Origin: Rariglobus sp.
GTDB lineage: Bacteria; Verrucomicrobiota; Verrucomicrobiia; Opitutales; Opitutaceae
Length of the DNA stretch: 64,000 nt
Direction: 5' to 3'
NCBI GenBank assembly: GCA_029266495.1
Contig: JAQSWS010000017.1
Span: 12,599-76,598 of the forward strand
Shown: positions 21,892 through 46,354 of the stretch, in pieces
Numbering within the stretch: the stretch's first letter is position 1
Layout: the number at the start of each line of letters is the position of its first letter
The notes under the pieces: generated by a model
Told to the model about the DNA's origin: nothing
The model's database searches: none
Seen by the model: only the letters and a program-made list of their open reading frames with translations
Position numbers and translations under genes: made by a program

Positions 21892-24800
21892 TCACGGTGC
21901 CGGGACATACCGCACCTCTTGTGTTCCGGGGCTATCCGGTGCGAGTTCGGCGGCGCCGACGTTGTCGCTTGTCACCAACAGCCGGAATGCCTGGCCGGGA
22001 GCGGTAAACACCGCGCCGCCCCCGCCCGGGTGCACGAGATCGCGCGGAAGGCGCCACTCCCAGGTCGTTGCACTCCCGCCAGTCGGCGCCATCGCGACCG
22101 CCCTGCCGCCCGGCGACGTCGGAGCGCCTTCGTTCCAACCCCCGTTCTTCTCGCTGTAAACGCCGCCGTTTTGAAGCAGCAACTCGGAGCCGAAACCCGA
22201 GCCGTGTGGATGAAATCCGGTGACGCCCGCCAGGTCGGTGTCGAGGTAGGTGTTGTTGTAGAACGCGGCATAATCGTGGGCATTCCATGTATCGACGCGC
22301 AGGTAGATGTAGTCCGCGTCGTGGGCCAGCCACACGGCCTTCACATCGGACGGCGCGCCCGCCTGGTCGCCCGTGACGTCGTCGTAAACCTTCGCAATCG
22401 CGGGCCAGTCGGCGCCATTGCCATCGATCGTAATCGTCGCCGCCACCGACGGCGGAGCGAAGGTGTAGGTGAGCACCGCCGAAGTTTCGTCCCCTGCAGT
22501 CGATCCACTCGTCACGAGATACTTGAAACCAACGCCGTCAAAGACCCCGCCGCCACCGGCGCCGGTCGGATGAGTGAGCGCGCGGGGGACACGCCATTCC
22601 CAGCTCGTCGTGGACGTGGCGTAGGGGGCGATCGCAACGGAGGCCGCGTAACCATCGTTAAACCCTCCGTTTTTTTCGGAGTAAAGCGCGTCCCCTTGCA
22701 TGAGCAATTCGCTGCCCAGCAATCCTGCGAGGAAGGGATCGAAGCCGGTGGCGCCGGACCGGTCGGCATCGAAGTAGAGGTTGTTTCCCTGGGAGTGGAA
22801 ATCGTGCGTATTCCAAGTATCGATACGGAAATAGACATAGTCCCGATCGTTGGCCATCCACACCGCCTTCAGGTCGGACGCGGCGGAGCCATGGTCGCCG
22901 GACGGATCTTCCCACACCAGTGCCGCGGAGGGCCAGTCGGAGAAGCCGCCGTCCACGGTGATGCCCGCGTAGACGGAGCCGCTCGATTTGCGCGGCATGG
23001 CGGTGAGGGTGACGACGTTGGCGTCCTCGTAAGGCGTGGGCGTGACACTGTCCACGGCTCGCACAATGAACGCATAGGCCGTCCCGTTGGTCAGTCCCGT
23101 GACGGTGTGCTCGTTGGCGACGGCGGTGGCGAGGTTGACCGGGTAGGCGTAATCTGCGGGTGCGGTGCCGGCAATGATGCCGGTGTTTTGCCAGGGCGAG
23201 GTATTCAGATTGGCTGTGCCGGGAGCGGGCGACGCGGGCGCATAATAGACTTTGTAGCGGACGGGCCGTGTCTGGTCAGTCGCGGTGTCCCAACGGACGA
23301 TGACCGCACCGTCGTCGGGAATGGCCGCCTGGATGCCGGTGCGCAGGGGAGCGAAACTCGAGGTGCCGCGCGGCGTGAAACCGTTGCCGGTGGTGCTCCA
23401 CACGGGAGCCGAGGTGTCGATGTTGGCGGTGTTCCAGGTTTGCGCACGGGTATTGGGCGCCTGGCTCAGGAATTTGTCGGATTGGTAGAGCGACCAGCCC
23501 TGCACTTTTTGCGATTCCACAAAATCGGTGTCGTAAACCGAGCCGCTGGATTTCTCGAAGCGATAACCGAGGTTTTTCTCGAAGCCGTCACTGGCGATGA
23601 CGGGAAAATACTGCGTGACGGCACCGGTGTCCCACGTCAGCAGCATGAGGATATGCGAACCATCGGCGCCGAACACGGCTTGATTCGGAAGCCGCGGATG
23701 CGTGGCCGGGTGAACAAGGCTGCGCGGGATGCGGATCTCCCATTCGGTTTTCGCGGTGTTGGCGCTCCGGGTGGCGGTGCCGACGGAGCCGACATTGAAC
23801 AGGCCGGTGTCCTGGCTGTAGAGGCCGCCGTTTTGATAGAGCAACTCGGAGCGGATGCGTGTGCCGGCGCCGGTCGGAACATAGCCCGCGGCGGACACGT
23901 CGAGGCCATCATCGACGACATCATCCGTGTCGATGTAGAGATTGAAGCCGGCGGTGTTGAGATCGGTGCCGGCGTCGGTGCTGATGCGCAGGTAAAGGTA
24001 GTTGCCATTGTTGGTGGCATACACCGCGTTGATGGCACCCGCATCGGGCGCTTCGCCGTTGGACTGGAGTTTCGCCTCGGAAGGCCAGTCGGAGACGTTG
24101 CCGTTGATCGTGATGGTGGCGCGAACGGCACGGGGCTCGAGATAACCCAGCGCAATCACGGAGAAGCCGTCGGCGCGGTCGGCCTCGGCGGAGAGTTTTA
24201 GACCGATGCGATATTTGCTATCGAGGAAGTAGGGGCTGAACGTGTCGTAGTCGTTGCTGTCGGCGTAGTAGCTTTCGAACATCACGGCATCGACGAAGGG
24301 ACGCGTGGTGAAGCCATAGGCCTCGAACTCGGGGTTGAAGAAAAAAGTGGCGCGGTTCTGCACCAGGAGCTTGCCGGGGAAAGTCGCGCGCGCCGTCTGG
24401 AGGAGCTGGCGGAAGCCGGGCGTGGTCCACTCAAACTGGAGCGCGGGCGAAAAACTATTGGGCGCGCAGGTGTCCATCGTGTCGATGAAGATGCCGTCGC
24501 AACCCAATCCCAGACCGGTGGTGGTGGTGAGGATCTCGTCGAGGCCGCAATTGCCGTCGGCGGCGACGGTCATGCTCTTCAAAACGGCGAACCAGGCGGG
24601 ATCGCCGGCGTTGACGTAGGCTCCGGCGAACTCTCCGTTGAACTCGGGCTTGCCGTCGTAGGGAGGGTTGTCGACGTAGAACGAGGCATAGCCGGTCCCG
24701 CCGGGGGAGGCGGTGCCGAGCGAGGCGCTGCCGTCGGAATTCAGTGTATCGGGCAACGTGCCCGCCGCGGGACTCGACCCCCGGGGATCGATGCGCGGGC

Positions 24801-25185
24801 CGGTGCCGCCGCTGACGGTTTTGATGACGCGATGACCATTCACGTAAACGTAGAAGCCATTCGAATCGGTCTGATAGATGGTGGAGCGGTTGTCTTCGCC
24901 GAAGGAAATGTAGCCGACGACCCGGATGTCATCCGCGGTGCCGCTGACGTTGTCGGTGCCGTTCTGCAGATCGGCGACCTGCGCGCGGGTCATGACGCGC
25001 GGTTCGACGATCACGAGCCGGTAGCCGTTGCCCTGAACGGTGGAGAGGAGCGTGGGGTTCCAGGAGCCGTAGTAGATGTAATAGGGATCACGGCTGCTGA
25101 AACGCTGGAGCGGTGCGTCGGCGCGCGTCGATGAAACGGATACGAGAACAGTGAGGAGGAAGGCGTATTTTTTAATCGAATACAT
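21892..25185 (-). CDS. Secreted GH114-like glycosidase with three beta-sandwich modules and FN3
   Basis: The protein has 1097 residues from the ATG at 25185; the longer frame starts with MAQAPALRRSA from a REP copy. A signal peptide occupies about 1-22. Residues 26-350 form a TM1410/GH114-type barrel: YYIYYGSWNPTLL, VVGYISFGEDN (87-99), GCDGIFIDTMDTC (228-240), FESYYADSND. A DGxxxDW module A (356-540) follows. Then VESQKVQGWSLYQSDKF (557-573) looks like the last strand and helix of the barrel, so module A appears inserted in it. FN3-like 595-730, module B 740-908 and module C 915-1097 complete the chain. GH114 members cleave alpha-1,4-polygalactosamine; activity here is inferred. There is no sorting signal. 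About 80% of the architecture is shared with the next gene. Confidence 0.8.
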   Translation of the reverse strand: MYSIKKYAFLLTVLVSVSSTRADAPLQRFSSRDPYYIYYGSWNPTLLSTVQGNGYRLVIVEPRVMTRAQVADLQNGTDNVSGTADDIRVVGYISFGEDNRSTIYQTDSNGFYVYVNGHRVIKTVSGGTGPRIDPRGSSPAAGTLPDTLNSDGSASLGTASPGGTGYASFYVDNPPYDGKPEFNGEFAGAYVNAGDPAWFAVLKSMTVAADGNCGLDEILTTTTGLGLGCDGIFIDTMDTCAPNSFSPALQFEWTTPGFRQLLQTARATFPGKLLVQNRATFFFNPEFEAYGFTTRPFVDAVMFESYYADSNDYDTFSPYFLDSKYRIGLKLSAEADRADGFSVIALGYLEPRAVRATITINGNVSDWPSEAKLQSNGEAPDAGAINAVYATNNGNYLYLRISTDAGTDLNTAGFNLYIDTDDVVDDGLDVSAAGYVPTGAGTRIRSELLYQNGGLYSQDTGLFNVGSVGTATRSANTAKTEWEIRIPRSLVHPATHPRLPNQAVFGADGSHILMLLTWDTGAVTQYFPVIASDGFEKNLGYRFEKSSGSVYDTDFVESQKVQGWSLYQSDKFLSQAPNTRAQTWNTANIDTSAPVWSTTGNGFTPRGTSSFAPLRTGIQAAIPDDGAVIVRWDTATDQTRPVRYKVYYAPASPAPGTANLNTSPWQNTGIIAGTAPADYAYPVNLATAVANEHTVTGLTNGTAYAFIVRAVDSVTPTPYEDANVVTLTAMPRKSSGSVYAGITVDGGFSDWPSAALVWEDPSGDHGSAASDLKAVWMANDRDYVYFRIDTWNTHDFHSQGNNLYFDADRSGATGFDPFLAGLLGSELLMQGDALYSEKNGGFNDGYAASVAIAPYATSTTSWEWRVPRALTHPTGAGGGGVFDGVGFKYLVTSGSTAGDETSAVLTYTFAPPSVAATITIDGNGADWPAIAKVYDDVTGDQAGAPSDVKAVWLAHDADYIYLRVDTWNAHDYAAFYNNTYLDTDLAGVTGFHPHGSGFGSELLLQNGGVYSEKNGGWNEGAPTSPGGRAVAMAPTGGSATTWEWRLPRDLVHPGGGGAVFTAPGQAFRLLVTSDNVGAAELAPDSPGTQEVRYVPAP

Positions 25186-25196
25186 GGCTGATCGTC

Positions 25197-25299
25197 GTAG
25201 GGCTGGCGCTTGCGCCATGCCTGGATTGAGAACGCGGGTGAAACGGAGCCTGGACGGGGGCGACGAAACGGAGAGGCGTGGCGCAAGCGCCAGCCCTAC
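25197..25299. repeat. REP-like inverted pair upstream of a GH114-like gene
   Basis: The copies are 25197-25221 and 25275-25299, with a 53-nt loop. They lie in the 165-bp gap between the two tandem GH114-like genes, close to the terminator of the upstream one. Confidence 0.85.
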
Positions 25300-25350: not shown

Positions 25351-28300
25351 TCAGGGAGCCGGGATATACCAGATGGCCTGGGTGCCTGGACTATTCGGAA
25401 CGAGCTCGGCGACGCCGGAGTTGTCGCTCGTCACCAGGAGAAAGAACGACTGGTCGGGCTCGTCGAAGACCGGGCCGCCGGCGCTCGGATGAACGAGATC
25501 GCGCGGAATGCGCCATTCCCAGGTGGTGGCGCTGCCGCTGGTGGGCGACATCGTCACGGTCTTGCTGCTGGGCGAGGTCGCGGAGCCTTCGTTGAAGCCT
25601 CCGTTCTTCTCACTGTAGACGCCGGTATTCTGGAGGAGCAGCTCGGACCCGAAGGGCAGCGAGTGCGGCAGGAAGCCGGAGGCCGAGGAGAGATTGGCGT
25701 CGAAGTAGGTGTTGTTGTAATTCGCCGCGTAATCGTGGGAGTTCCAGGTGTCGATGCGCAGGTAGATGTAGTTCGCATCGTTGGCGATCCACACGGCCTT
25801 CACATCGGAGGGCGCCCCGGCATTGTCGCCGGTGACGTCATCGTAGACCTTCGCACCCGAGGGCCAGTCGGCGCCGTTGCCATCGACCGTGATCGTGGCG
25901 GAGGTGGTGTGCGGCGGGATGGCGAGACCGGCCATCGCATAGCGCAGCGCACCGGCATTGGGAGCGAACTCGGCGGGACCGGCGTTGTCGCTGGTGAGAA
26001 GAACATCGATGGCGGATCCGGTGCCTTTGAACACGGTGGTGCCGGCGCGAGCACCCGCCCCGGAGGGATGGAGACTGGAGCGCGGGATGCGGTATTCCCA
26101 ACTGGTGGCCGTGGCGGAGCCAGTGGGGCTCACGGTGACGGTGCCAATGGAGCCGTCGTTGAAACCACCCGCGCCCTGGCTGTAGAGGCCGGTGCCTTGA
26201 ATGAGGAGCTTGGAACTGATGCGACCGAGGCTGTGCGGATTGAAGCCAGGACCGACGCCCACCTCGGGATCGAAGTAGAAGTTGTTGGCGGCCGCGGGCT
26301 GGTCGTGGGCGTTCCAGGTGTCCACGCGAAGATAGACGTAGTTGAGATCGTTGGCCATCCACACGGCTTTGAGATCGGAAGCGGCTCCCAAGGTGTCTCC
26401 CGAGGGGTCGCTGTAGATCAGGGCATGCGCGGGCCAGTCGGTGGTGGTGCCGTCCACCGTGATGGTGGCGAAGACCGAAGACTGGGCGAATGTGTAGGTG
26501 GCGGCGCCGGCGATTTCGTCGGTGGTTGCAGAGCCGCTGGTCACGAGGATCTTGAAACCGGCGGCGGTGAAGACGCTGCCGCCTCCCGCGCCGGAGGGAT
26601 GCTGGAGGTTGCGGGCGACCTTCCATTCCCAACTCGTGGCGGAGCCGCTGCCGGGATTGATCGCAACGGTGCCGATGAGACCGTCGTTGAAGTTGCCGGC
26701 CTTCTCGCTCCAGAGCGTGCCGCCCTGAATCAGGAGTTCGCTCGCGATGAGGCCCGCGCCATAAGGATTAAAGCCGGTGTCGCCGCCAGCGAGGTCGGTG
26801 TCGAGGTAGAGGTTGTTAAACGCGTTGGGGAAATCGTGGGAGTTCCAGGTGTCCACGCGGAAGTAAACGTAATCGGCGTCGTTCGCGACCCACACCGCCT
26901 TGATGTCCGAGGCACCGGTGCCGTTGTCGCCGGACGGATCGCCCCAGATCTGGGCGTCGGCGGGCCAGTCGGAGAACGCTCCATCGATGACGATGCTGGC
27001 GTAGATCGAGCCGGCACTTTTTTGCGGTGTCGCGGTGAGCGTCACGGTGTTGGTGTCCTCATGGACGGTGGAGGCGCTGTCGACCGCGTGCACGACGAAG
27101 GCATAGGCGGCGCCGTTCTGAAGACCGGTGACGGTGTATTCGTTGGCGTAGGACGTGGCGGCGTTGCGCGGGTAGCCGTAGTTGGCGGGCGCGGTGCCGT
27201 AAACGATGCCGGTGTTCAGCCACGGCGAGGTGTTCAGGTTCGCGGTGCTGGAGCCGGCCGGCGCGTAGTAGATCTTGTAGCGGACGGGGCGGCTCTGGTC
27301 GTTGGCGGTGTCCCATTGCACGGTCACCGCGCCGTCGCCGGGAAGCGCGGCCTGAATGCCGGTGCGCGCGGGCTCGAACACGGTGTCGGTGCGCGATTTG
27401 AAACCGTTGGCGGTGGTGCTCCATACGGGTGCGGCCGTGTCGGTGTTCGCGGTGTTCCAGGTGGCGGTGCGGGTATTGGGCGCAAAGCTCAGGAACTTGT
27501 CGGTCTGGTAAAGCATCCAGCCCTGGGTCCTTTGCGACTCGACGAAGTCGGTGTCGTAAACGGAACCGCTCGCCTGCTCAAAACGGTAGCCCAGGTTTTT
27601 CTCGAAGCCGTCGGCGGCGATGATCGGGAAATACTCCGTGGTCGTGCCGTTGTTCCAGGTGAACAGCATCAAGACATGCGAGCCGTCGGTGCCGAACACG
27701 GGCTGGCTGGCGTAGCGGCCATGCGCGCCGGGATGGGTCAGGCTGCGCGGAATGCGGATCTCCCACTCGGTCTTCGCACCGTTGGCGGAAACGGTCGCGG
27801 AGCCGACGGAACCGACGTTGAACACGCCGGTATCCTGGCTGTAGAGACCGCCGTTTTGATAGAGCAACTCGGAGCGGATGCGCGTGCCGGCGCCGGTCGG
27901 AACGTAGCCCGCGGCGGACACGTCATCGAGGTCGGCGAGATCGTCGGTGTCGATGTAGACGTTGAAATTCGTCGTATTGAGATCGGTGCCGGCATCGGTG
28001 CTGACGCGCAGGTAGAGATAGCTGGCGTCGTTGGCGGCATACACGGCGTTGATCGCGCCGGAGTCCACGGGGAAACCGTTGACCTGGAGTTTCGACTGGG
28101 CGGACCAGTCGCCGACGTTGCCATCGATGGCCGGAGTCGCGCGGATGGCGCGAGGCTCAAGGTAACCGAGCGAAAGCACGGTGAAGCCGTCGACGCGGTC
28201 GGCCTCGGCGGAGAGCTTCAGGCCGACGTTGTATTTGTTGTCGTTAAAATAAGGACTCTTCCAGTCGAAGTCATTGCTGTCGGAGTAATAGCTCTCGAAG

Positions 28301-29223
28301 AAGACGGCGTCGATGTAGGGACGCGTGGTGAAGTTGTAGTGCTCGACGTCCGTGCGGAAGAAAAAGGTGCCACGGTTCTGGAGAACGAACTTGGTGGGGT
28401 AGTTGTCACGGACCGTTTTCATGAGCTGCCGGTAGCCGGGGGCGGTCCACTCAAACTGGGTGGCGGCGGAAAAGCTGTTGGGTGCGCAGGTGTCGATCGT
28501 GTCGGTAAAGATGCCGTCGCAACCAAGCCCCTTGCCGACAGTGAGGCCGAGGATCTCGTCGAGGCCGCAGTTGCCGTCGACGGAGAAGGTCATGTTTTTC
28601 AACACGGTGAACCACGCGGGGTCTCCGGCATTGACGTAAGCGCCGGCAAATTCGCCGTTGAAGTCGGGCTTTCCGTCGAACGGCGGATTGTCGAGGTAGA
28701 AGGAGGCGTAACCGGTGCCGCCGGTCGAGGCGTTGCCGAGGGAGGCGACACCGCCGGCGCCAATCGTGCTCGCGATGGAGCCGGTGGTCAGGCCGGTGGA
28801 CGGGTTGTAACGCGGGTCGATGCGCGGACCGGTGCCGCCGGTGACGGTCTTGATGACACGATGACCGTCCACGATGACGAAGTTGCCCGAGCCGTCGGTT
28901 TGATAGATGGTCGTGCGGTTGTCCTCGCCGAAGGAAATGTAGCCGAGGACGCGGATATCATCGGCGTTACCGGCGGTGTTGTCCGCGCCGTTTTGCAGAT
29001 CGGCGACCTGCGCGCGGGTGATGTTTTTCGGCTCTACGATGACGACCTTGTAGCCGTTGGACTGAACCGTGGTGAGCAGGGCGGCGTCCCAGGCGCCGTA
29101 ATAAATGTAGTAGGTGCTGCTGTTGGTAAACCGTTCGACGGGGGCCGCCGCCTGGGTGTTCGCGGTGAACACGGAAGGGAGCAACCCGGAAGCTAACAAG
29201 GCGCAGTGGAGCGTTGTTTTCAT
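25351..29223 (-). CDS. Secreted GH114-like glycosidase with four beta-sandwich modules and FN3
   Basis: The protein has 1290 residues from the ATG at 29223 (MKTTLHCALLASG, signal peptide to about residue 25). It is a paralogue of the gene downstream. The GH114/TM1410 barrel is at 36-357, with VLGYISFGEDN and GCDGIFTDTIDTC (234-246). Module A (362-545) interrupts the barrel before VESQRTQGWMLYQTDKF. FN3-like 600-730 follows, then modules B (740-915), C (917-1100) and D (1106-1290). Each module opens with ITVDGxxxDWP and carries AVWxANDxxYxYLRxDTWNxHD, like CBM9/DOMON-type domains. Module C is the extra copy relative to the shorter paralogue. It has its own terminator and its own upstream operators. 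Presumed extracellular action on an amino-sugar polymer is an inference. Confidence 0.82.
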   Translation of the reverse strand: MKTTLHCALLASGLLPSVFTANTQAAAPVERFTNSSTYYIYYGAWDAALLTTVQSNGYKVVIVEPKNITRAQVADLQNGADNTAGNADDIRVLGYISFGEDNRTTIYQTDGSGNFVIVDGHRVIKTVTGGTGPRIDPRYNPSTGLTTGSIASTIGAGGVASLGNASTGGTGYASFYLDNPPFDGKPDFNGEFAGAYVNAGDPAWFTVLKNMTFSVDGNCGLDEILGLTVGKGLGCDGIFTDTIDTCAPNSFSAATQFEWTAPGYRQLMKTVRDNYPTKFVLQNRGTFFFRTDVEHYNFTTRPYIDAVFFESYYSDSNDFDWKSPYFNDNKYNVGLKLSAEADRVDGFTVLSLGYLEPRAIRATPAIDGNVGDWSAQSKLQVNGFPVDSGAINAVYAANDASYLYLRVSTDAGTDLNTTNFNVYIDTDDLADLDDVSAAGYVPTGAGTRIRSELLYQNGGLYSQDTGVFNVGSVGSATVSANGAKTEWEIRIPRSLTHPGAHGRYASQPVFGTDGSHVLMLFTWNNGTTTEYFPIIAADGFEKNLGYRFEQASGSVYDTDFVESQRTQGWMLYQTDKFLSFAPNTRTATWNTANTDTAAPVWSTTANGFKSRTDTVFEPARTGIQAALPGDGAVTVQWDTANDQSRPVRYKIYYAPAGSSTANLNTSPWLNTGIVYGTAPANYGYPRNAATSYANEYTVTGLQNGAAYAFVVHAVDSASTVHEDTNTVTLTATPQKSAGSIYASIVIDGAFSDWPADAQIWGDPSGDNGTGASDIKAVWVANDADYVYFRVDTWNSHDFPNAFNNLYLDTDLAGGDTGFNPYGAGLIASELLIQGGTLWSEKAGNFNDGLIGTVAINPGSGSATSWEWKVARNLQHPSGAGGGSVFTAAGFKILVTSGSATTDEIAGAATYTFAQSSVFATITVDGTTTDWPAHALIYSDPSGDTLGAASDLKAVWMANDLNYVYLRVDTWNAHDQPAAANNFYFDPEVGVGPGFNPHSLGRISSKLLIQGTGLYSQGAGGFNDGSIGTVTVSPTGSATATSWEYRIPRSSLHPSGAGARAGTTVFKGTGSAIDVLLTSDNAGPAEFAPNAGALRYAMAGLAIPPHTTSATITVDGNGADWPSGAKVYDDVTGDNAGAPSDVKAVWIANDANYIYLRIDTWNSHDYAANYNNTYFDANLSSASGFLPHSLPFGSELLLQNTGVYSEKNGGFNEGSATSPSSKTVTMSPTSGSATTWEWRIPRDLVHPSAGGPVFDEPDQSFFLLVTSDNSGVAELVPNSPGTQAIWYIPAP

Positions 29224-29265
29224 TGTGGTGTGGGGTGGCAAAACAGAGGCGATAAGAACAAAAAA

Positions 29266-34394: not shown

Positions 34395-35249
34395 ATGCGC
34401 TTCCATAAATACCACGCCCTCGGCAACGACTACATCGTCTGCGATCCCGCTGACTTTCCCCAGTGGAAAAACGGCCCGTCCGTCGACGAAATCCGCGTGA
34501 TCTGTCACCGCAACTTCGGCGTCGGCTCCGACGGTATTCTCTGGGGCCCCCTGCCTTCCACGAAGAGCGAATTCGGCCTGCGCATCTTCAACCCCGACGG
34601 CTCCGAGGCGGAAAAATCCGGCAACGGCCTGCGCATTTTTTCCCGCTACCTGTGGGACCGGAAGCTCGCCAAAAACGCCACGTTCACCATCGAGACGCCG
34701 GGCGGCCACGTGCAATCCGTCATCAAGGAAAACGGCAGCCTCATCACCGTCGACATGGGCTCCGTGAGCTTCGTCAGCACCAAGATCCCGCACACCGGTT
34801 CCGAACGCGAGGTCCTCAACGAACAGATCACCGCCCTTGATCGCACGTTCACCTACTGCGCCGCCACCATCGGTAATCCGCACTGCGTGCTGCCGCTCCC
34901 GGAAGTGTCCGCCGAGCTCGCCCATAAATACGGCCCGCACCTCGAAACCCACGCCAATTTCCCGCGCAAGACCAACGTCCAGTTCCTCCAGGTGCTCGAC
35001 CGTAAAAACATCCGGATCGAAATCTGGGAGCGCGGCGCCGGCTACACCCTCGCCTCCGGCAGCAGCTCCAGCGCCGCCGCCTCGGTTGCGCACAAGCTCG
35101 GCCTCGTCGACGCCGACGTCACCGTGCACATGCCCGGCGGCACGATCGGCATCGAGATCGGCGCCGGATTTGCGATTCGCATGACCGGCACCGTCAACAA
35201 AGTCGCCGACGGCGTGATGCACCCCCAGCTGTTCGAAGTGAAAGTCTGA
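34395..35249 (+). CDS. dapF: Diaminopimelate epimerase-fold protein lacking both catalytic cysteines
   Basis: The protein has 284 residues, normal DapF length. Family motifs are clear: KYHALGNDYIVCD, FGVGSDGIL, FNPDGSEAEKSGNG (66-78), TIGNPHCV and WERGAGYTLASGSS (211-224). DapF converts LL- to meso-diaminopimelate with a cysteine pair (Cys73/Cys217 in E. coli) found in CGNG and ACGxGAC contexts. Here both are serine, Ser75 and Ser221, read directly from TCC codons. Mpl elsewhere in the window shows that the cell uses meso-DAP peptidoglycan, so an epimerase is needed. Either this protein works differently, acts on another substrate, or a second dapF exists elsewhere. The gene symbol therefore names the family, not proven activity. 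Confidence 0.8.
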   Translation: MRFHKYHALGNDYIVCDPADFPQWKNGPSVDEIRVICHRNFGVGSDGILWGPLPSTKSEFGLRIFNPDGSEAEKSGNGLRIFSRYLWDRKLAKNATFTIETPGGHVQSVIKENGSLITVDMGSVSFVSTKIPHTGSEREVLNEQITALDRTFTYCAATIGNPHCVLPLPEVSAELAHKYGPHLETHANFPRKTNVQFLQVLDRKNIRIEIWERGAGYTLASGSSSSAAASVAHKLGLVDADVTVHMPGGTIGIEIGAGFAIRMTGTVNKVADGVMHPQLFEVKV

Positions 35250-36042: not shown

Positions 36043-37524
36043 ATGGGATGGATTTCCGACTTCTTCCGGCTCGCGTGGGGCTTCCTTTATTGGAACACCC
36101 GAAAGACCGTCTACCGGCTGCGCGGAACCCGAAGCCAATGCCCCTGCCAGCACCTGAGCGACTCCGGACGCGCGTGGGAAACGGCTTGCGATGCCGCGGT
36201 CCACTGGAACAAACCCGCCCGCTTCCGGCGCCTTTGTCCGCTGCTCAAAAAAAACGACGCCGGCCTCTGGCGTTGCTCGGTGGACCGCCGTGACGTGCGT
36301 CCCTTCTGGGGTCGCGCCGCGGTCTTTCATGGCGGCCTCCTGCTCATTGTGTATCTGACGGCCACCCTCGCCGTCTTCGTCTTCCTTCGAAAAGTCGGTT
36401 ATCGCGTCACCTACCCCGGCGTCCTGTGGCCGCCCGCCTGGGAAAAATTCACCTCGATTCGCACGGACTATTTCCTGCGAAAATTTCAGTCCGCCTCCGC
36501 CGCGGGCGACATGCAGACCGCGCTCATGTCGCTTTCCACCGCCTATAACCTGGAGCCGCAAAACTACGCGACCGGCCGCCAGCTCGCCCAACTCTGGCAG
36601 GTCGGGCAGCCCGGGTTTTCCGACACCATCTATCGCCGGCTGCTCAACGACCATCCTGCCGAGGCCGCGACGACTGCGCAGGTCTGGTTCCGCGCCCTGC
36701 TGGCGCGCGGTGATTTTGCAGGCATCGAAACCCTCGCAAGCGACCGCATCGTCGCCGCACCCGATCAAGCGGGCGCCTGGCTGAACGCCTTTCTTTTCGC
36801 CAATCGGCGCACCGGCGACGCCGCCGCGCGAAACCGGCTCGCGGCCGCGCGCACCCTGCCCGATTCCGCCCGTTTTCTCCTGACCCTGGCCGACGACCTT
36901 GAAAAAAAACCGTCTCCCGCGGATACGCGTGAACGCCTCTCGAAGGCGGCCGCCGAAGCCGGGGACCCGCTGTCGTTTTTCAACGTCCTCCGCCAGTTCG
37001 TCTCCCGGGGCTTTGGAGAAGACGCCCTGCACTGGATCGATCGACGCCCCGGGCTCATCGGTCCCCGTGATTTGGTCCCCCTGCGCCTCGACGCACTCGC
37101 CACCGCGCGCTGGAGCACGCTCCTTCACCGTGAAGTTGAAACCCTTCTCGGGCCGCCACCGCATCCGGTGATCGTCGAGCTGTTGAGCGCACACCTCATC
37201 CGCCACCCCGATGCCACCGTGCGCGATCTTCTCTTCGCCCGGCTCGAGCGGGATCCACTCCCGGCCGCTCCGGCCAGCTACTCCGCTTATCTCTCGTTGT
37301 TCTGCGCAGCCGGCGCCGGACGCGACCTGCCACGACTCCACACGACCGCCGCGCGCATCAAGGAAGTCCTCCGCGACGATTTCAAAAGCCTCGATGCCGT
37401 CGGTGAAAGCCTCGTGAAGCACAGCCGGAACCAGCGCATCGAAAATTACCTGCCGGCATTGCAACCGCTGCCGCTGGATGTCAGCTACGCGTTGTTCGAG
37501 CATTACGCTCCCCTTCCTCGATGA
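36043..37524 (+). CDS. Membrane-anchored repeat protein cotranscribed with exosortase
   Basis: The protein has 493 residues. The N-terminus has a cysteine cluster (CPCQH, then ACDAA, RLCPLLKK, LWRCSVDRRD) over residues 33-80 that could bind a metal. One membrane helix follows (AVFHGGLLLIVYLTATLAVF, about 93-115). The remaining 370 residues are alpha-helical and read like TPR/Sel1-style repeats (FLRKFQSASAAGDMQTALMS, then LSTAYNLEPQNYATGRQLAQ). No named family was recognised. The stop overlaps the exosortase start by 4 bp, so the two are translated together; a role in recognising or routing PEP-CTERM proteins is plausible but unproven. Confidence 0.7.
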   Translation: MGWISDFFRLAWGFLYWNTRKTVYRLRGTRSQCPCQHLSDSGRAWETACDAAVHWNKPARFRRLCPLLKKNDAGLWRCSVDRRDVRPFWGRAAVFHGGLLLIVYLTATLAVFVFLRKVGYRVTYPGVLWPPAWEKFTSIRTDYFLRKFQSASAAGDMQTALMSLSTAYNLEPQNYATGRQLAQLWQVGQPGFSDTIYRRLLNDHPAEAATTAQVWFRALLARGDFAGIETLASDRIVAAPDQAGAWLNAFLFANRRTGDAAARNRLAAARTLPDSARFLLTLADDLEKKPSPADTRERLSKAAAEAGDPLSFFNVLRQFVSRGFGEDALHWIDRRPGLIGPRDLVPLRLDALATARWSTLLHREVETLLGPPPHPVIVELLSAHLIRHPDATVRDLLFARLERDPLPAAPASYSAYLSLFCAAGAGRDLPRLHTTAARIKEVLRDDFKSLDAVGESLVKHSRNQRIENYLPALQPLPLDVSYALFEHYAPLPR

Positions 37525-39119
37525 CCGCGCCGTCCTTCCTTCTGCCCCTCACCCCCTCCGGACGGATCGTGGTGGCCCTGGCTGGATTGCTCACCGCCGG
37601 TCTCTGCCTGCACCTCTGGCCGGTGTGGCTGGACAATCCGGATCTTTCGCACGGCCTCTTCGCACCCGTGCTGTTCCTGTTGCTGTTGCATGAAAGCCGC
37701 CGGCGCGGACCGTGGCGCCACCCGGCCGACACCCTGCTTCTCCGGATTGCGCGCGGCCTCATACTCGCGAGCGGCGTCGCCCTCGTGTCCATCGCCGGCC
37801 TCTATGCCGCGGCCGTCGAGTGGACCCATCCGCTCGTGGGCCTGTCGCTTTCACTCGCGCTCTCCGCGCTGCTGCTCGGCGCGCTGCTCTGGCTTTCATC
37901 CTCACGCGTGCGCGCCCTGCCTCTCAATTGGACCACGCTCGTTGCAGTCGGCTTCTGGCCGTTGTGCGCCCAAATCCCTCCGGGCACCTACACGCGCATC
38001 ACCCTGCAACTCCAGTTTTGGGTGACCGATGTCGTGCTTCAATCCCTGCACCTGCTCGGGATCGCCGCCTCCACCTCGGGCAACATCATCCTGCTCGCCC
38101 ACACCAGCGTGGGCGTCGAGGAAGCGTGCAGCGGCGTGCGAAGCCTCATCTCATGCTTTGTCGCCGCGGTGTTTTTCTCCGCCACGCTGGTGCGACGGCC
38201 CTGGGCCCGCCTGCTCATCATCGCGCTGGCCCCCCCGCTGGCGTTCGGAATGAACATCGTCCGCTCGCTCGGACTTACCTTGCTCGCCAACGCCGGCGTG
38301 GACATCGGAGGAAAATGGCACGACGTCACCGGGTTCGCCGTTCTGGGCGTGACGGCCGCAATTCTTGGCGCCCTGGCCCTTTGGCTCGAAGAGCCTGAAC
38401 CGTCTTCGGATCCACTCCCGCCCGCCACACCGGATATCGTCGCCGCTCCGCGGCCCTGGGGCGTGCTCACGGCATTCGTTCTCACGACCGCACTCGTCGG
38501 ATTTTTTGTCTTCAATACCCATGGTCCTATCCGTGAAGCCGGTCCGCCCCCCGATTTGCGATCGCTGCTTCCAACCGACCCCGCGGGCTGGGATCTCGTG
38601 CACACCGACGATCTCTATCGCTTCGCATCGATCCTCGAAACCAAACACCTCATCCAGCGGACGTATGTGCGCCGTGGAACCGCGGTCGGTTCCGAGCCGG
38701 TGCAGGTCACCGTGTATGTGGCTTACTGGTCGCCAGGCCAGGTTCCGGTCAGCCTCGTCGCCTCCCACACCCCCGAAGCCTGCTGGCCGGGCGGAGGCTG
38801 GGCGGCGCAACCGACCGTGCCGGCGGATTCTCCTTTTCTTTTCGGCGGGCAGACCCTGCCCGCGCCCGAATATCGCGCCTTCACGAACTCCGGGTTTCTG
38901 CAACACGTCTGGTATTGGCATCTCTATGACGGCCACTCCATCACGCAGAACGACCCCCGCTCCGCCGTCGCCTTGTTGAAACTTGCCTGGAACTACGGCT
39001 TCCGGACCGCGGGCGAGCAGATGTTCGTGCGTGTCTCCAGCAACCGCCCCTGGACGGAAATTCGCGACGACCCGCTCCTGACCGGCATCCTCTCCCGCCT
39101 CGAGCCCTTCGGACTGTAA
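37521..39119 (+). CDS. xrt: Exosortase with fused EpsI domain
   Basis: The protein has 532 residues. The N-terminal 300 residues have about eight membrane helices and the exosortase active-site set: Cys203 in VEEACSGVRSLISCF, Arg248 in NIVRSLGLT and His267 in KWHDVTGF. The C-terminal 200 residues are an EpsI-type periplasmic domain (DPAGWDLVHTDD, VYVAYWSPGQVP, SHTPEACWPGGGWA, FLQHVWYWHLYDG). Exosortases cleave PEP-CTERM sorting signals and link the protein to an envelope polymer. The PEP-CTERM protein at 17768 is a substrate candidate in this window, and many more probably exist elsewhere. Fusion of Xrt and EpsI is known but not universal. Confidence 0.92.
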   Translation: MTAPSFLLPLTPSGRIVVALAGLLTAGLCLHLWPVWLDNPDLSHGLFAPVLFLLLLHESRRRGPWRHPADTLLLRIARGLILASGVALVSIAGLYAAAVEWTHPLVGLSLSLALSALLLGALLWLSSSRVRALPLNWTTLVAVGFWPLCAQIPPGTYTRITLQLQFWVTDVVLQSLHLLGIAASTSGNIILLAHTSVGVEEACSGVRSLISCFVAAVFFSATLVRRPWARLLIIALAPPLAFGMNIVRSLGLTLLANAGVDIGGKWHDVTGFAVLGVTAAILGALALWLEEPEPSSDPLPPATPDIVAAPRPWGVLTAFVLTTALVGFFVFNTHGPIREAGPPPDLRSLLPTDPAGWDLVHTDDLYRFASILETKHLIQRTYVRRGTAVGSEPVQVTVYVAYWSPGQVPVSLVASHTPEACWPGGGWAAQPTVPADSPFLFGGQTLPAPEYRAFTNSGFLQHVWYWHLYDGHSITQNDPRSAVALLKLAWNYGFRTAGEQMFVRVSSNRPWTEIRDDPLLTGILSRLEPFGL

Positions 39120-44923: not shown

Positions 44924-46354
44924 CTAACTTCCCGCGGATGCCGACGCGGCATATTTCGCAATGATACCGTCAAAACTGCCATTGCTGAAAAAGACCACCA
45001 ATCGGGCCCGGGCCGTGCTCGCCGGAAGCGTCGCGGCCTTAAGCCCGTCCAGCAACGCCGCATTCGTCGGGGCACTCGCGGCGCGCACCCCCTGCGACTC
45101 CAAATGCGCAATCACCGCGTCGGTGTTAAACCGCTCGTCGGCTTTCAACTTATCGGCGCGATTCACCGCCCCCAGGTAAACCTCGTCCGCCAGCGCCAGC
45201 GCCGCCATGAAGCCGGCCTGCAGCGTGTTCGTGCGCGCCGTGTTGCTGCGCGGTTCAAACACCGCCGTGAGCACCGCGCCGGGGAACCGGTTGCGAAACG
45301 ATTTGAGCGTCTCCGCCAGTGCGGTGGGGTGATGACCGAAATCCTCGATGACCGTAAGCGCCGGCGTGCTCACCAGCACCTCCTGCCGCCGCTTCACCCC
45401 GCGAAACCGCGCGAGGGGTTCGAGCGACAGCGCAACCGGCGCTTCGGGCCGTGTCGCCAGTGCCGCGGCCGTCGCCGCCATCGCGGCGTTGCGTGCGTTG
45501 TAAATCCCGGGGATCGCCCACTTCACCGCGCCCCACTCCCTGCCGCTCCAGATCAAGCGAAAACCCACCCCGGCCGGCGTCTCGGAAAAATCCACGATGC
45601 GCACGTCGTTGCCCTCTCCCGTGCCCACGCGCACAACGCGCGTCCAGGGCAGATCACCGAGCGCACGCAGGTTTTCGTCGTCTCCGTTCATCACGATATA
45701 ACCGTTCCGGGGCACGATGCGCGTGAGATGGGCAAACGTCCGTTGCACGTCCGCCAGATCGCGGAAGATGTCGGCATGATCGAACTCCAGGTTGTTCAAT
45801 ACCGCGACATGGGGCGCGTAGTGGATGAACTTCGACCGCTTGTCGAAAAATGCGCTGTCATACTCGTCCCCCTCGATTACAAACGGGTCGCCCGCCGCCC
45901 CGAGGTGGTTGCCCACAGGCGGATCAAGCGGCACGCCGCCAATCAAAAAGCCGGGGTCGCGTCCGTTCTCGCGCAACAAAAACGCCGTGAGCGAAGTCGT
46001 GGTCGTCTTTCCATGCGTGCCGCACACGACGATGTTTTTCCGCGTCTTCAAGACCGTGTCGTGAAGCAGCGCGGGCAACGAGGTGAACGGCAGCGAGCGC
46101 CCGTCCAGGAGCCACTCAACCTCGGGGTTGCCGCGTGACATCGCGTTTCCGATCACGACGAGATCGGGCGCGAGTCCCTGGAGGCGGATGGGATCATACC
46201 CCTCGTGCAGGATGATCCCGGCATCCGCGAGGACCGTGCTCATCGGCGGATAAACCCCGGTGTCGGCGCCCAGCACCTCGTGCCCGGCCGCACGCGCCAG
46301 CAGCGCCGCATTGCCCATCGCCGTTCCACAGATGCCCATGAAGTAGATTTTCAT
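44924..46354 (-). CDS. mpl: UDP-MurNAc:L-Ala-gamma-D-Glu-meso-DAP ligase
   Basis: The protein has 476 residues of Mur-ligase family. The N-terminal [12 protein letters not shown]-type start reads [20 protein letters not shown], the ATP loop is [20 protein letters not shown], and the Mpl-specific acceptor segment is [34 protein letters not shown] and the C-terminal [20 protein letters not shown], then [14 protein letters not shown] follow. It ligates recycled murein tripeptide to UDP-MurNAc. This implies meso-DAP peptidoglycan with recycling, relevant to the cysteine-less DapF at 34395. Confidence 0.93.

Follow-up and report, generated by a model that had tools for sequence, protein, structure and literature searches.

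DapF, a target for antibacterials, is a textbook example of catalysis by a thiol-thiolate pair. The window analysed here, the whole 64,000-nucleotide stretch of a Rariglobus sp. contig, encodes a DapF homologue with serine at both catalytic cysteine positions. This raises the question of whether such a protein is a genuine member of the family, and whether two hydroxyls could do the work of two thiols in converting LL-DAP to meso-DAP. As judged from sequence comparison, the Ser-Ser DapF is a real, conserved variant that lacks the thiol pair and probably works like DapF.

The window protein and its active-site residues

The gene is complete (Table 1), and its product scores 227.4 bits against the DapF model TIGR00652 (cut-off 114.65) and 186.6 bits against PF01678. 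No proline racemase family model is among its Pfam/NCBIfam matches at E up to 1. The AlphaFold2 model of the protein has a mean pLDDT of 92.9 and a pTM of 0.86. When this predicted model was searched with Foldseek, DapF structures were the nearest folds, with TM scores (query) of 0.89-0.91 for the first six and an E value of 4.8e-34 for 8qzy, the P. aeruginosa DapF that is also the best sequence match of the window protein among solved structures. Hydroxyproline epimerases rank lower, with TM scores (query) of about 0.69-0.76.

In the alignment to solved DapF chains, Ser75 stands opposite the cysteine of the CGNG motif and Ser221 opposite that of ACGTG/ACGSG. The claim of the preliminary description that both catalytic cysteines of this homologue are replaced by serine is thus confirmed by the reading frame, the codons and the alignment. 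The thiolate-thiol pair by which DapF is recognised is therefore missing from the window protein. The PROSITE DapF signature, as quoted in PMC8225329 (cited here, like the other PMC papers, from parts of its text), has Cys before G-N-G, and the window protein has Ser there.

Further residues accompany the serine pair (Table 1). Lys74 directly precedes Ser75, a notable difference because Anabaena DapF is described as having no basic residue within 4 Å of its thiols (PMC12039745). Ser224 lies three residues after Ser221, at a position occupied by Gly in every Cys-Cys enzyme read, whereas the residue three after Ser75 is Gly78. Asn11, Asn66, Asn161, Asn194, Glu212 and Arg213 align with the residues that hold DAP in Anabaena DapF according to PMC12039745, and His163 does not.

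Table 1 Positions of the Ser-Ser DapF gene, its marked residues and other features of the window, and of Ser-Ser dapF genes and their neighbours in other bacteria
Feature	Source	Position	Strand	Basis or remark
Ser-Ser DapF homologue	Window	34395..35249	+	Open frame, 284 aa, complete gene
Asn66, equivalent of distal DAP contact Anabaena Asn66	Window	34590..34592	+	134/134 Ser-Ser; PMC12039745
Lys74, directly before Ser75, clade-specific	Window	34614..34616	+	132/134 Ser-Ser, 0/82 Cys-Cys
Ser75, codon TCC, in EKSGNG, first catalytic Cys position	Window	34617..34619	+	Alignment to solved DapF chains
Asn194, equivalent of distal carboxylate contact Anabaena Asn197	Window	34974..34976	+	134/134 Ser-Ser; PMC12039745
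Glu212-Arg213, equivalents of distal amino and carboxylate contacts Anabaena Glu215-Arg216	Window	35028..35033	+	134/134 Ser-Ser; PMC12039745
Tyr217, four before Ser221, clade-typical	Window	35043..35045	+	131/134 Ser-Ser, 2/82 Cys-Cys
Ser221, codon TCC, in LASGSSSS, second catalytic Cys position	Window	35055..35057	+	Alignment to solved DapF chains
Ser224, third after Ser221	Window	35064..35066	+	132/134 Ser-Ser, 0/82 Cys-Cys
Mpl-like murein peptide ligase, separate gene	Window	44924..46354	-	TIGR01081 385.1 bits, just under cut-off 388.7
Exosortase-like membrane protein	Window	37521-39119	+	TIGR04178 53.7 bits, cut-off 23
Long secreted-type protein, similar-looking to its neighbour	Window	21892-25218	-	By eye
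Long secreted-type protein, similar-looking to its neighbour	Window	25351-29241	-	By eye; weak Firmicu-CTERM match, below cut-off
alr	Spirochaetaceae L089	ends 4959		dapF directly after
Ser-Ser dapF	Spirochaetaceae L089	4956 to 5861		TTG start; next ATG nine bases on
M20-family amidohydrolase frame	Spirochaetaceae L089	5858-7078		Overlaps dapF by 4 bases
lysA	Spirochaetaceae L089	8513-9910		About 2.7 kb beyond dapF
CDS annotated dapF, Ser-Ser	Streptomyces sp. NBC_01216 plasmid (L257)	2992-3936		
CDS annotated dapF, Ser-Ser	Agrobacterium vitis plasmid (L261)	253-1149		

Conservation and distribution of the serine pair

The two catalytic positions are strictly coupled. Among 218 distinct DapF proteins read, 134 are Ser-Ser, 82 are Cys-Cys and two are partial, and no mixed Ser-Cys intermediate was found. 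Relatives from a genome-contig scan gave 60 loci, 59 of which have Ser at both sites; the remaining one (L090) is partial and has Ser at the second site, the one covered. Across 131 distinct genes, Ser75 is encoded by TCN in 86 and AGY in 45, and Ser221 by TCN in 126 and AGY in five. Because the pair is conserved in 134 distinct proteins and written with both classes of serine codon, a sequencing error at both sites, which the preliminary description had named as a possible refutation, is excluded, as is a pseudogene.

In a quick IQ-TREE tree, the Ser-Ser proteins form a single clade (SH-aLRT 99). The clade persists when columns 74, 75, 217, 221, 223 and 224 are removed (SH-aLRT 100) and when either of two long plasmid branches is omitted (SH-aLRT 99-100). 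The tree alignment comprised 118 proteins under 85% mutual identity, and residue counts refer to all distinct proteins. Members read at both sites come from Verrucomicrobiota, Lucifera butyrica (Negativicutes) and others of its class, another Bacillota contig, Spirochaetaceae and Neomarinimicrobiota; in Desulfosporosinus, which is absent from the trees, only the second site is readable because the contig is cut. Among bacterial proteins, the Ser-Ser type makes up a large and old clade.

The equivalents of the Anabaena DAP contacts (PMC12039745) are retained in 132-134 of the 134 Ser-Ser proteins. Asn66, Asn194, Glu212 and Arg213 are invariant, as is His163; Asn161 and Asn11 are each found in 132, the two exceptions at Asn11 being gaps. 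Lys74 is replaced by Met or Arg in two Ser-Ser proteins, and three have His, Ser or Leu instead of Tyr217. L259 and L262, the Cys-Cys proteins placed closest to the Ser-Ser clade by the quick tree (support 85), carry Tyr217 as well.

When 200 genomes of the window's family were searched with P0001, 161 gave a strong match (E 1.3e-68 or better), 25 a weak one and 14 none at E 1e-5. All 49 strong-match genomes that were read are Ser-Ser and all 14 weak-match genomes that were read are Cys-Cys; the weak-match genomes left unread are G070, G079, G127, G137, G144, G153, G158, G159, G167, G172 and G193. The family genomes read carry one DapF type or the other, never both, and a single TIGR00652 match is the rule (182 of the 185 genomes with any), so one type seems to stand in for the other. 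Two matches occur in G058 (two Ser-Ser copies), G160 (one copy read, Ser-Ser) and G070 (unread).

Among 387 Verrucomicrobiota genomes, the Ser-Ser profile gives 325 bits or more in 82, 33 in the window's family and 49 outside it. The 20 high scorers read from outside the family are all Ser-Ser, and 39 loci with lower scores, read at both catalytic positions, gave only Cys-Cys. A double match occurs in seven of the 82 (G322, G385, G420, G485, G505, G535 and G541). The only second copy read among these is that of G535, which has one Ser-Ser and one Cys-Cys protein; the second match of G541 is a fragment.

The situation in Negativicutes is different. A Ser-Ser-level match is present in 28 of 200 genomes of Lucifera's class, and 27 of these 28 have a second DapF match. 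Every first copy read (21 of 28) is Ser-Ser and every second copy read (21) is Cys-Cys, Lucifera contributing one of each. The Ser-Ser enzyme is thus an extra one in these bacteria and may act differently there, either as an isoenzyme, perhaps indifferent to thiol oxidation, or in a related but different reaction.

The DAP pathway and gene neighbourhoods

The window's genome is 99.75% complete. A second dapF, for which the preliminary description had proposed a search, was not found in it with the protein, PF01678 or TIGR00652; a PF01678 match (E 0.38, 12.7 bits) and a P0001 match with internal stops (E 0.13) were discounted as noise. The genome encodes DapL (561 bits), LysA (450 bits), MurI (174 bits, over the cut-off) and MurE (536 bits) with the DNPR motif, which marks DAP-type MurE. 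Since the product of DapL is LL-DAP, and LysA and DAP-type MurE consume meso-DAP, an epimerase is needed in this genome. Ddh gave no match there and was rejected as its meso-DAP source. The preliminary description had also taken Mpl in the window as a sign that meso-DAP is needed; an Mpl-like gene is indeed present, with a family score just below the cut-off. In the parts of PMC5303756 consulted, DAP is reported from Opitutus terrae and Lacunisphaera, its isomer not being stated, and strain IG16b is listed as having a DapF, the residues of which are not discussed there.

Across the 200 family genomes, Ddh scores above its cut-off in nine, and eight of the nine, including the single-contig Ser-Ser genome G003, also have a Ser-Ser-level DapF, so the latter is not needed for meso-DAP there. 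Five family genomes at least 90% complete lack DapF. One of them, G051 (99% complete, single contig), has Ddh and a DapL match below cut-off, and is thus the one genome that shows Ddh in place of DapF; in G002 and G080, which belong to the same genus, DapF and Ddh occur together. The other four (G021, G052, G123 and G177; 90-97% complete) have neither a DapF nor a Ddh match, which suggests either that absence calls are imperfect, for example through assembly gaps, or that another route exists. LysA is present in G021, G052 and G123. As a separate observation, LysA is high-scoring in most Ser-Ser-type family genomes tested (about 434-464 bits, but 294 bits in G020), and a different, lower-scoring LysA is found in the other-type genomes (about 245-269 bits).

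In Spirochaetaceae, the Ser-Ser dapF of L089 lies between alr and an M20-family amidohydrolase frame, with lysA nearby (Table 1). In L088, alr and lysA are placed similarly, and TIGR00652 finds one DapF, Ser-Ser, in each of the two genomes. For Opitutaceae and Negativicutes, no DAP-pathway neighbour is among the eight annotated proteins, one of which matches no family. This is a weak test: dapF was located in only 28 of 50 Opitutaceae and 17 of 20 Negativicutes loci, and the simple ORF picker favours longer shadow frames in G+C-rich DNA.

The two plasmid proteins, L257 and L261, share 36% identity, and both lack Lys74 and Ser224. A 2OG-Fe dioxygenase and a molybdopterin oxidoreductase adjoin both genes, and the Streptomyces locus also carries an iron-containing redox enzyme and an aldo/keto reductase. 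The setting looks like a secondary-metabolism cluster, and the two are probably a distinct, specialised branch, in which a pathway has its own DapF-like isomerase.

Proposed function and comparison with known systems

On balance, we infer, with a cautious preference, that the Ser-Ser protein is an LL-DAP to meso-DAP epimerase, with DAP as its substrate and the hydroxyls of Ser75 and Ser221 as its acid-base pair. The DapF-like fold would close round DAP, the distal L-centre of which would be held by Asn66, Asn161, Asn194, Glu212 and Arg213, and the N-terminal ends of two opposed helices would bind the reacting carboxylate. From opposite faces, Ser75 and Ser221 would remove and return the C-alpha proton in place of two thiols. 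Lys74 and Ser224 may tune the serine hydroxyls, Ser224 perhaps acting like the Asn by which proline-racemase enzymes orient their catalytic Ser, and Lys74 might position Ser75 on the other face. In favour of this epimerase is that its gene is the only DapF-family gene found in a nearly complete genome that also has DapL, LysA, MurE, MurI and an Mpl-like ligase, and no Ddh match. The apparent replacement of one DapF type by the other within the family, the Ddh-bearing genome G051 with no DapF, the place of the gene beside alr and near lysA in Spirochaetaceae L089, the retained DAP contacts, the Ser-Cys 4-hydroxyproline epimerase and the DAP of Opitutus terrae and Lacunisphaera point the same way. 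Against it stand the coexistence with Cys-Cys DapF in Negativicutes and in G535, the presence of Ddh in eight Ser-Ser-level genomes, the four genomes at least 90% complete with neither DapF nor Ddh, the Ser-Ser plasmid proteins in an apparent secondary-metabolism setting, the lack of DAP-pathway neighbours in the weak test of Opitutaceae and Negativicutes, and the near-inactivity of laboratory Cys-to-Ser mutants. The C101S and C233S mutants of PddB, a 2,4-diaminobutyrate racemase, are reported to keep under 0.1% of the activity, and a loss with single Cys-to-Ser changes in M. tuberculosis DapF is said there to have been reported likewise (PMC8225329). Crystallographers are described as often impairing such enzymes on purpose by a change of a catalytic Cys to Ser (PMC12039745).

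Rather unlikely, though deserving weight, is a different chemistry in the same pocket, in which a diamino acid resembling DAP, or an activated form whose C-alpha is more acidic (an imine or an N-acylated derivative, for example), would be isomerised or undergo elimination, and meso-DAP would come from an unrelated enzyme. Such a shift has parallels in a related fold class, where a Cys-to-Thr change in the human enzyme is reported to turn an epimerase into a dehydratase (PMC8142540) and the Ser-Thr enzyme t3HypD is a dehydratase (PMC4113996). It would also suit the presence of Ser-Ser proteins beside Cys-Cys DapF in Negativicutes and beside Ddh in eight family genomes, and the secondary-metabolism setting of the plasmid relatives. 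However, the distal DAP contacts Asn66, Asn194, Glu212 and Arg213 are kept in every Ser-Ser protein, the family genomes read have one DapF type or the other, and the window's genome, with no Ddh match, shows no other known meso-DAP route. If the Ser-Ser enzyme does something else, the Ddh-less Opitutaceae would have to make meso-DAP by another route.

It is improbable that the bases have moved, with Lys74 and Tyr217, or another clade-specific residue, carrying the protons and the serines being structural only. Both residues mark the clade almost as well as the serines do (Table 1), and Lys and Tyr are the known base pair of the PLP-dependent alanine racemase (PMC8142540), but the serines are invariant in all 134 proteins, whereas Tyr217 varies in three and Lys74 in two, and Tyr217 is already present in the Cys-Cys proteins L259 and L262.

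A non-catalytic DAP-binding regulator or scaffold is very unlikely. By the usual criterion the protein has neither of the general acid-base residues, but it is the sole DapF found in the window's genome, its serines are strictly conserved with both codon classes in use, the DAP contacts are conserved with them, and the Spirochaetaceae gene sits between alr and the M20 hydrolase gene. The preliminary description had left three readings side by side, namely a new acid-base pair, a different racemase or isomerase, and a non-enzyme. The genomic context favours the first; the second is kept in play by the regular coexistence of a Cys-Cys DapF in Negativicutes; the third has become unlikely because the pocket is strictly conserved and no other DapF was found in the window's genome.

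A role as a glutamate racemase that provides D-Glu, which has been suggested for chlamydial DapF (PMC5885031), would fit the lack of a MurI match in eight of 14 family genomes with a Ser-Ser-level DapF, but a replacement of MurI is rejected as highly improbable: the window's genome and five more of the 14 have MurI, none of eight other-type genomes (seven read as Cys-Cys, G153 assigned by its weak match) has it, so that its lack does not follow the Ser-Ser type, the score against the bifunctional DapF/glutamate racemase model NF038284 is 68.1 bits (cut-off 350), and distal DAP recognition is retained.

Among known systems, the proline racemase superfamily has a related two-domain fold class but belongs to another family and acts on other substrates than the Ser-Ser DapF. 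The Ser-Cys 4-hydroxyproline epimerase and the Ser-Thr t3HypD have Ser on one face and Cys or Thr on the other (PMC4113996). The epimerase pair is given there as Ser93 with Cys236 or Cys255, legend and text differing, and in this class an Asn three positions after the Ser holds the latter in place (Asn93 after Ser90). Aspartate/glutamate racemases with a Cys-Thr pair also exist (PMC8142540). By analogy, a single catalytic Ser that works in a related fold class may serve as a precedent for one hydroxyl. In the open-access literature searched, as far as its text was available, no racemase or epimerase with two serine hydroxyls and no thiol is mentioned, and no description of a Ser-Ser DapF was found. 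PddB is DapF-like and cofactor-independent like the Ser-Ser protein, but is Cys-Cys (PMC8225329). Chlamydial DapF, the bifunctional enzyme described by NF038284, shares with the Ser-Ser protein the DapF family and the PVC superphylum, but both of its cysteines are reported to be kept and needed (PMC5885031).

In summary, the closest known relative of the Ser-Ser protein is the Cys-Cys DapF of TIGR00652, as in H. influenzae, Anabaena and E. coli. The two are alike in predicted fold, length, family score and pathway context, and in the contacts Asn11, Asn66, Asn161, Asn194, Glu212 and Arg213 together with His163; they differ in the two serines that stand for cysteines and in Lys74, Tyr217 and Ser224. 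If the Ser-Ser protein is indeed an epimerase, the DapF fold does its chemistry without thiols and the annotation of Cys-less sequences changes, the plasmid proteins L257 and L261 being annotated as dapF already. Residue swaps between natural Ser-Ser and Cys-Cys enzymes would then allow a direct test of which features determine the pKa of the two catalytic residues.
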